Below, in pieces: positions 6,138 to 6,647 of a stretch of 20,144 nt of DNA. Positions within the stretch are counted from its first letter, which is position 1, and each line of letters begins with the position of its first letter. Both the position numbers and the translations under genes were made by a program. The DNA is from a virus. The DNA lies in the IMG/VR virus record IMGVR_UViG_3300025695_000129, positions 1 to 20,144 of that record; one strand, written 5' to 3'. The notes below the pieces were generated by a model, which was not told the origin of the DNA, made no database searches, and worked only from the letters and a program-made list of their open reading frames with translations.

Positions 6138-6647
6138 GGCTTTCTCCAGGCAATAGTTGTCATTTAGAGAGCTGTTAGTGACCTATTAGCTCTACACACT
6201 GTTTGTTCTGATGCACATCTCAGGTAATCAGCAACCATTTATACTCAGGCTGGCAAGACCTGACCTACTAGGCATACTCGGTATGCTTCGTCACTATTAC
6301 GCTGTTTATCCCGCTCTCTAAAGGTTAGAGATGTGGTGAAAGCCTTTTGCTGCGGAGGGTCTGGCTTAGCCTCACAACTGTTTATACTGGGCAGATACAG
6401 TATCAGGTATAGCATCAGAACAAGCGTACTAAACCTGTTGCTGTGGATAACTTTACCCAAGCTGTGGATAACTAAGTGAATAACTTTCAGGAAGGTTGTT
6501 GCATCTATGCACAGGTGTGCACTAAAATGATAACTCCAAAGGCGCTGTGTAAAACAGGTACTAGGAGTTTTACTTCCGGTATTTAGCTTATCCAGTGCTT
6601 GGGGTCTGCAAACCCCACAGCGTCTTCCTAACTTACAATCTCCTAAC
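6138..6647. other. 510-bp non-coding region, candidate replication origin
   Basis: This is the longest stretch without a credible gene. It contains two perfect DnaA boxes (TGTGGATAA) and several inverted repeats. These are GCATAC/GTATGC at 6272-6286, ATACTG/CAGTAT at 6384-6403, GTAAAAC/GTTTTAC at 6549-6573 and TGGGGT/ACCCCA near 6600-6620. A 137-codon minus-strand frame spans most of it. Its composition (many Cys, Leu and His, no domain) and the absence of a Shine-Dalgarno argue against coding. No strongly AT-rich unwinding tract stands out. The helicase gene starts at its left edge and NinG ends at its right edge. Confidence 0.5.
6442..6483. other. DnaA box cluster
   Basis: TGTGGATAA occurs at 6442-6450 and 6463-6471, each the exact reverse complement of the consensus DnaA box TTATCCACA. 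Each sits inside a 13-base repeat GCTGTGGATAACT. A weaker copy, AGTGAATAA, lies at 6475-6483. The two perfect boxes start 21 bp apart, about two helical turns, and share one orientation. This is the classic layout for cooperative binding of host DnaA. Use as a phage origin is inferred. Confidence 0.6.

Follow-up and report, generated by a model that had tools for sequence, protein, structure and literature searches.

Large ornate bacterial and phage RNAs such as GOLLD and ROOL are large, pseudoknotted non-coding RNAs of phages and prophages whose function is unknown (PMC12286853). In ColE1-type plasmids, the replication primer RNAII is a long RNA that folds as it is transcribed from its own promoter beside replication functions, while origins of the E. 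coli oriC and pSC101 type carry exact consensus DnaA boxes in the same orientation and with helical phasing. In lambda-type origins, which are activated by transcription, transcription runs through a replication region into replication genes (lambda replication promoters, PMC3985674). Here we examined a 510-bp non-coding stretch within a window of 20,144 nucleotides (IMG/VR virus record IMGVR_UViG_3300025695_000129, positions 1 to 20,144), which the original prediction had read as a replication origin at which the phage recruits host DnaA. We find that this stretch is mainly the gene of a large, intricately folded predicted RNA of about 470 nt that belongs to no known family and is carried by many uncultured phages beside their DNA-replication genes, and that in one small branch of them this RNA also contains perfect matches to the sites of the host replication starter DnaA. 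Like GOLLD and ROOL it is large and pseudoknotted, but it has no Rfam match of any kind, sits in the replication module, and has its own invariant blocks. It shares with RNAII a position beside replication functions and a promoter-like signal of its own, although no sequence relation is known, no R-loop or primer has been shown, and the element is followed at once by a coding gene. In contrast to oriC-type origins there are only two boxes (one in one relative), most members have none, and no AT-rich unwinding repeat array was identified. Compared with lambda-type origins, no O-type initiator iterons were found, and the conserved feature is a structured RNA.

The observation behind the original prediction is confirmed. 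Exact TTATCCACA occurs twice, on the minus strand and 21 bp apart start to start, which corresponds to two helical turns and is what was meant by boxes in phase. Each box lies in the identical 13-mer GCTGTGGATAACT, and there are no other exact copies in 20,144 bp. In 40,000 first-order Markov simulations of the 510-bp region, one or more exact boxes arose in 0.34% and two or more in none. The weaker third copy also exists, as TTATTCACT with 2 mismatches about 12 bp before box 1, as do the inverted repeats crowding the region, for example TTGTTCTGATGC/GCATCAGAACAA. The gap lies between the NinG stop and the helicase start codon, and since both genes are on the minus strand the helicase is read away from it, as stated. 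The module also has SSB, a RecE-like exonuclease, a Sak-like annealing protein, NinB and a primase-like fragment. What could not be seen from a single sequence is that the repeats belong to a conserved RNA fold.

Relatives of the helicase were used to fetch 13 viral loci. Exact DnaA boxes were not found in the homologous gap of most of these, but the upstream gap of several shared blocks with the minus strand of the window. Two such blocks, scanned over IMG/VR, gave 57 and 71 stretches, many of which carry both blocks about 140-190 nt apart with arms that change in a complementary way, while a minority are chance matches. The same RNA occurs in roughly 80-100 IMG/VR phage contigs, and clustering left about 60 distinct elements. 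A covariance model (R1) built from ten of them, without the window, finds the window at 88.8 bits (E=7.5e-23), and it also finds loci L003 and L004 (L numbers denote the fetched loci), in which the helicase lies more than 1 kb further on. As a control, 12 loci fetched by a look-alike motif gave no model hit. The features of the locus are collected in Table 1.

Table 1. Positions of the RNA, its helices and conserved blocks, the DnaA boxes and the neighbouring genes in the window.
Position	Strand	Feature	Support
7349-6648	-	NinG/Rap endonuclease, upstream gene (start codon uncertain)	phrog_171, E=4.3e-59
6658-6653	-	-35-like hexamer TTGACG, inside the last codons of NinG	see text
6635-6630	-	-10-like hexamer TAAGTT, 17-nt spacer; inferred start of transcription about 6623	position; start site inferred
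6622-6616	-	5' strand of first stem P1 (CGCTGTG), pairs with 6543-6549 (CACAGCG)	7 bp; relatives have a stem of other sequence at this place, e.g. GTGCCGG/CCGGCAC
6616-6601	-	inner hairpin GGGGTTTGCAGACCCC of the 5' domain (its first base is shared with the end of P1)	same hairpin in relatives with changed pairs
6594-6588		TGGATAA, candidate pairing partner of box 1	see text
6549-6543	-	3' strand of P1	
6471-6463	-	DnaA box 1, TTATCCACA (13-mer at 6461-6473)	exact; kept in L073, L186 and, as a single box, L003
6450-6442	-	DnaA box 2, TTATCCACA, 21 bp from box 1 (13-mer at 6440-6452)	exact; same spacing in L073 and L186
6423-6412 and 6214-6203		inverted repeat TTGTTCTGATGC/GCATCAGAACAA (6203-6214 and 6412-6423)	see text
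6341-6151	-	conserved 3' core domain of the RNA	covariance model R1
6335-6328	-	pseudoknot helix C, 5' strand CACATCTC; pairs with 6214-6221 GAGATGTG and crosses helices A and B	7-11 bp in most members, with different sequences
6318-6313	-	helix A, 5' strand GAGAGC; pairs with 6167-6172 GCTCTC	99.6% of cells paired in 46 sequences, 5 of 6 pairs with two-sided changes
6312-6300	-	near-invariant block GGGATAAACAGCG	
6295-6290	-	helix B, 5' strand AGTGAC; pairs with 6177-6182 GTCACT	100% of cells paired in 46 sequences, 5 of 6 pairs with two-sided changes
6286-6272	-	hairpin GCATACCGAGTATGC	variable hairpin at this place in relatives; model helix 3, 74.8% of cells paired
6262-6246	-	hairpin CAGGTCTTGCCAGCCTG	model helices 4-5, 95-97% of cells paired
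6236-6223	-	near-invariant block GGTTGCTGATTACC	
6221-6214	-	pseudoknot helix C, 3' strand	
6169-6151	-	invariant 3' block CTCTAAATGACAACTATTG; helicase start codon 13 nt further on	
6658-6245	-	137-aa ORF	see text
6137-4641	-	SF2 DNA helicase, downstream gene	phrog_16, E=9.5e-86
4203-3799	-	134-aa primase-like protein; similar short genes follow the helicase in relatives	matches only about the first 95 positions (zinc-finger part) of long primase profiles (phrog_6088)

The fold comprises a 5' hairpin domain, a variable linker and a pseudoknotted 3' core that ends in an invariant CTCTAANTGACNACTATKG block. Among 46 aligned members, the 22 nested pairs of the model were 92.6% paired compared with 76.2% after shuffling, with 159 two-sided changes compared with 47 and a covariation of 0.396 compared with 0.147. 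All five whole-structure measures beat the shuffles (0 or 1 of 500 reached the observed value), and sliding the partner by 1-3 columns destroyed the signal. Helix C makes a pseudoknot, and own partners score 18.7 against 12.8 +/- 0.39 for shuffled partners. A second pseudoknot, between the loop CATNGTG and AAGCN'AG, agreed in all 25 members where both parts were recognised, although it was not identified in the window. The 5' domain, an outer stem plus an inner hairpin, is less well aligned but shows changed pairs. Pairing of the 5' domain with the linker (GGACTGA/TCAGTCC type) was suggestive but not clearly significant by shuffling (18.74 vs 17.75 +/- 0.37, with at least one shuffle as high), and a possible long-range helix formed by the inverted repeat is a perfect 12 bp in the window but ranked only 3 of 24 in four sequences. 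A TTGAC/TTGAA hexamer falls 35-38 nt before the first stem in about 24 of 33 members with a recognisable 5' domain, despite differences in the upstream genes. In the window this signal would place the start of the RNA next to the first stem, but its -10 is weak and a generic promoter scan did not report it.

No Rfam 15 family matched the window region or its relatives, at gathering or permissive E-value thresholds, other than by chance-level matches. A type II hammerhead ribozyme (RF02276, 48.4 bits, E=8.8e-07) was found in a contig that also carries the new RNA (L102, 1108-1171, plus strand), but several kb away from it. Blastn with two members found no phage record in INPHARED, and named phages carrying the nearest helicase or NinG relatives had no convincing match among those examined. 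In bacterial genomes, R1 returned nothing in 369 genomes sampled from the class of a Massilia host, a result that is uninformative because the known weak Massilia match was also missed at those filters, while model R2 returned only the already known match in 199 genomes of another class. Searches of an open-access literature library turned up no description of this RNA; as only titles and abstracts were judged, absence of a prior report is likely but not certain. A hidden protein, the 137-aa ORF, is not supported, because relatives conserve RNA pairs over the same region. The 3' block is also not explained as a conserved start codon or leader peptide (ATGACNACTAT..), given that 8 of 44 members lack an ATG there.

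Most members lack DnaA boxes. Among 61 non-redundant elements, only that of the window (L002) and L073 had exact boxes, and L186 and L003 were added later. A scan for two exact boxes 21 bp apart in direct orientation, done without regard to the RNA, returned at least 120 viral stretches, which is more than chance should give, and the arrangement seems widespread in phage contigs. Of 80 such loci examined, one (L186) has the RNA (80.5 bits), with its boxes in the linker where the window has them. L073 has the same pair, and L003 has one exact box at a similar distance. These four divergent members therefore hold 7 of 7 perfect boxes at about the same place, in linkers that otherwise differ a lot. 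The linker of L008 (upstream of core 5519) has no DnaA boxes but four tandem GGACACTATA units with a 10-bp period. We asked whether box 1 merely pairs with TGGATAA in the 5' domain: this fits the window and L073 but is mismatched in L186, while L003 pairs better elsewhere (permutation rank 6 of 24). A protein-binding constraint is therefore the better reading of the boxes, in this branch only, and that DnaA is the protein is inferred solely from the exact match to its known consensus.

The RNA lies in the recombination/replication module, usually just ahead of helicase-primase genes. In five one-directional relatives from which 35-44 kb were read, the order is annealing protein/exonuclease/SSB/NinB/NinG, then the RNA, then a nuclease-like or other gene, helicase and primase-like gene, where those genes lie within the contig (gene names here are by resemblance to those of the window, and not all were searched). 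The first gene after the RNA varies and may be the helicase, phrog_7141, phrog_18407, a Mom-like protein or small proteins; in L042, L019 and L059 it is a Mom-like DNA modification protein (phrog_1384, E=2.3e-49 for L042). Its start codon is usually 8-20 nt after the invariant block. In a Massilia-type set that shares the 3' block, a TGCTGAT motif and perhaps helix A (E about 1e-5 to 1e-3), the element instead follows the helicase and primase. Two named bacterial genomes, Massilia frigida and Massilia aquatica (L127, L131), hold a prophage-type set with the same 3' block and TGCTGAT motif, perhaps a divergent branch of the RNA that needs its own model; we regard the kinship of this set as likely but not proven. 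A turning point in GC skew had been proposed beforehand as a check on the origin reading, but skew was monotonic and did not change sign at the element in the window or in the five one-directional relatives, although with all genes in one direction this says little.

The interpretation offered by the original prediction is thus only partly supported: a link to DnaA is plausible for a small branch, but the locus itself is an undescribed structured RNA. The analysis establishes, nearly to certainty, the conserved fold read in the helicase direction, through compensatory changes in dozens of relatives, and its residence in the recombination/replication module of different phage contigs, mostly just ahead of the nuclease/helicase/primase genes, while the neighbouring genes change. 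Transcription as a separate unit is suggested by the promoter-like signal and, like any function, remains an inference from sequence. In the explanation we favour, which is about as likely as not, the RNA would work in cis at the head of the replisome operon, folding as it is transcribed to control replication, either by setting expression of the helicase-primase genes or by forming the RNA part of an origin. Position, orientation and the boxes favour such a role, but it is deduced from position only, and because phage genes are tightly packed, closeness to the next start codon is weak evidence for cis action; the order in the Massilia-type set, the lack of a skew switch and the absence of the boxes from most members also speak against it. 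It is likewise about as likely as not that, in the branch of the window, the two perfect boxes in the linker bind host DnaA and tie the locus to replication control.

Other explanations could conceivably account for some of these findings. A DnaA-dependent origin as first proposed, with host DnaA binding the two boxes, opening the DNA and loading the replisome while the RNA is secondary, draws on boxes far above chance, the pair with its 21-bp spacing kept in three members and one box in a fourth, and the location at the head of the helicase-primase module. We consider it unlikely, given the absence of exact boxes from all but two of the 61 elements, the lack of a skew switch, the conservation of RNA helices rather than box arrays, and the frequency of tandem boxes at this spacing in viral contigs without this RNA. 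A cis-acting leader that controls transcription elongation or translation of the next gene or operon, with no part in starting replication, is possible but doubtful: the promoter-like signal, the start codon soon after the invariant block and the shared direction with the next gene agree with it, yet the next gene differs widely and no terminator-like structure was found in the window.

A trans-acting RNA (counter-defence, host takeover or scaffold), merely parked in the early region like GOLLD or ROOL, would fit the size and ornate fold, the independent promoter-like signal and the changing neighbours. This also seems unlikely, because of the strong tie to replication/recombination genes and the lack of a terminator after the RNA in the window. 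Least likely, and improbable in our view, is action as single-stranded DNA, for example as a priming or nicking site. Helices A and B do contain very few G-U pairs (3 of about 550 cells), but G-U and A-C counts do not separate RNA from single-stranded DNA, and the promoter-like signal at a nearly fixed distance from the first stem argues for RNA. A more far-reaching possibility, unlikely though compatible with the data, is a widespread family of phage origins built around a large pseudoknotted RNA, in which the transcript would fold at the origin and direct replication start, with single branches adding recruiting sites of their own, such as the DnaA boxes here.

Large structured RNAs with several pseudoknots are rare and usually do demanding work, such as catalysis, scaffolding or sensing. 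The predicted RNA described here has no Rfam relative and is carried by many uncultured phages next to their replisome genes, and because its fold is fixed by covariation, mutants can be designed at once. If it takes part in replication, it would be an RNA-based control step in phage DNA replication; if not, it is still a new family to annotate and a warning that origin-like gaps in phages may be RNA genes.
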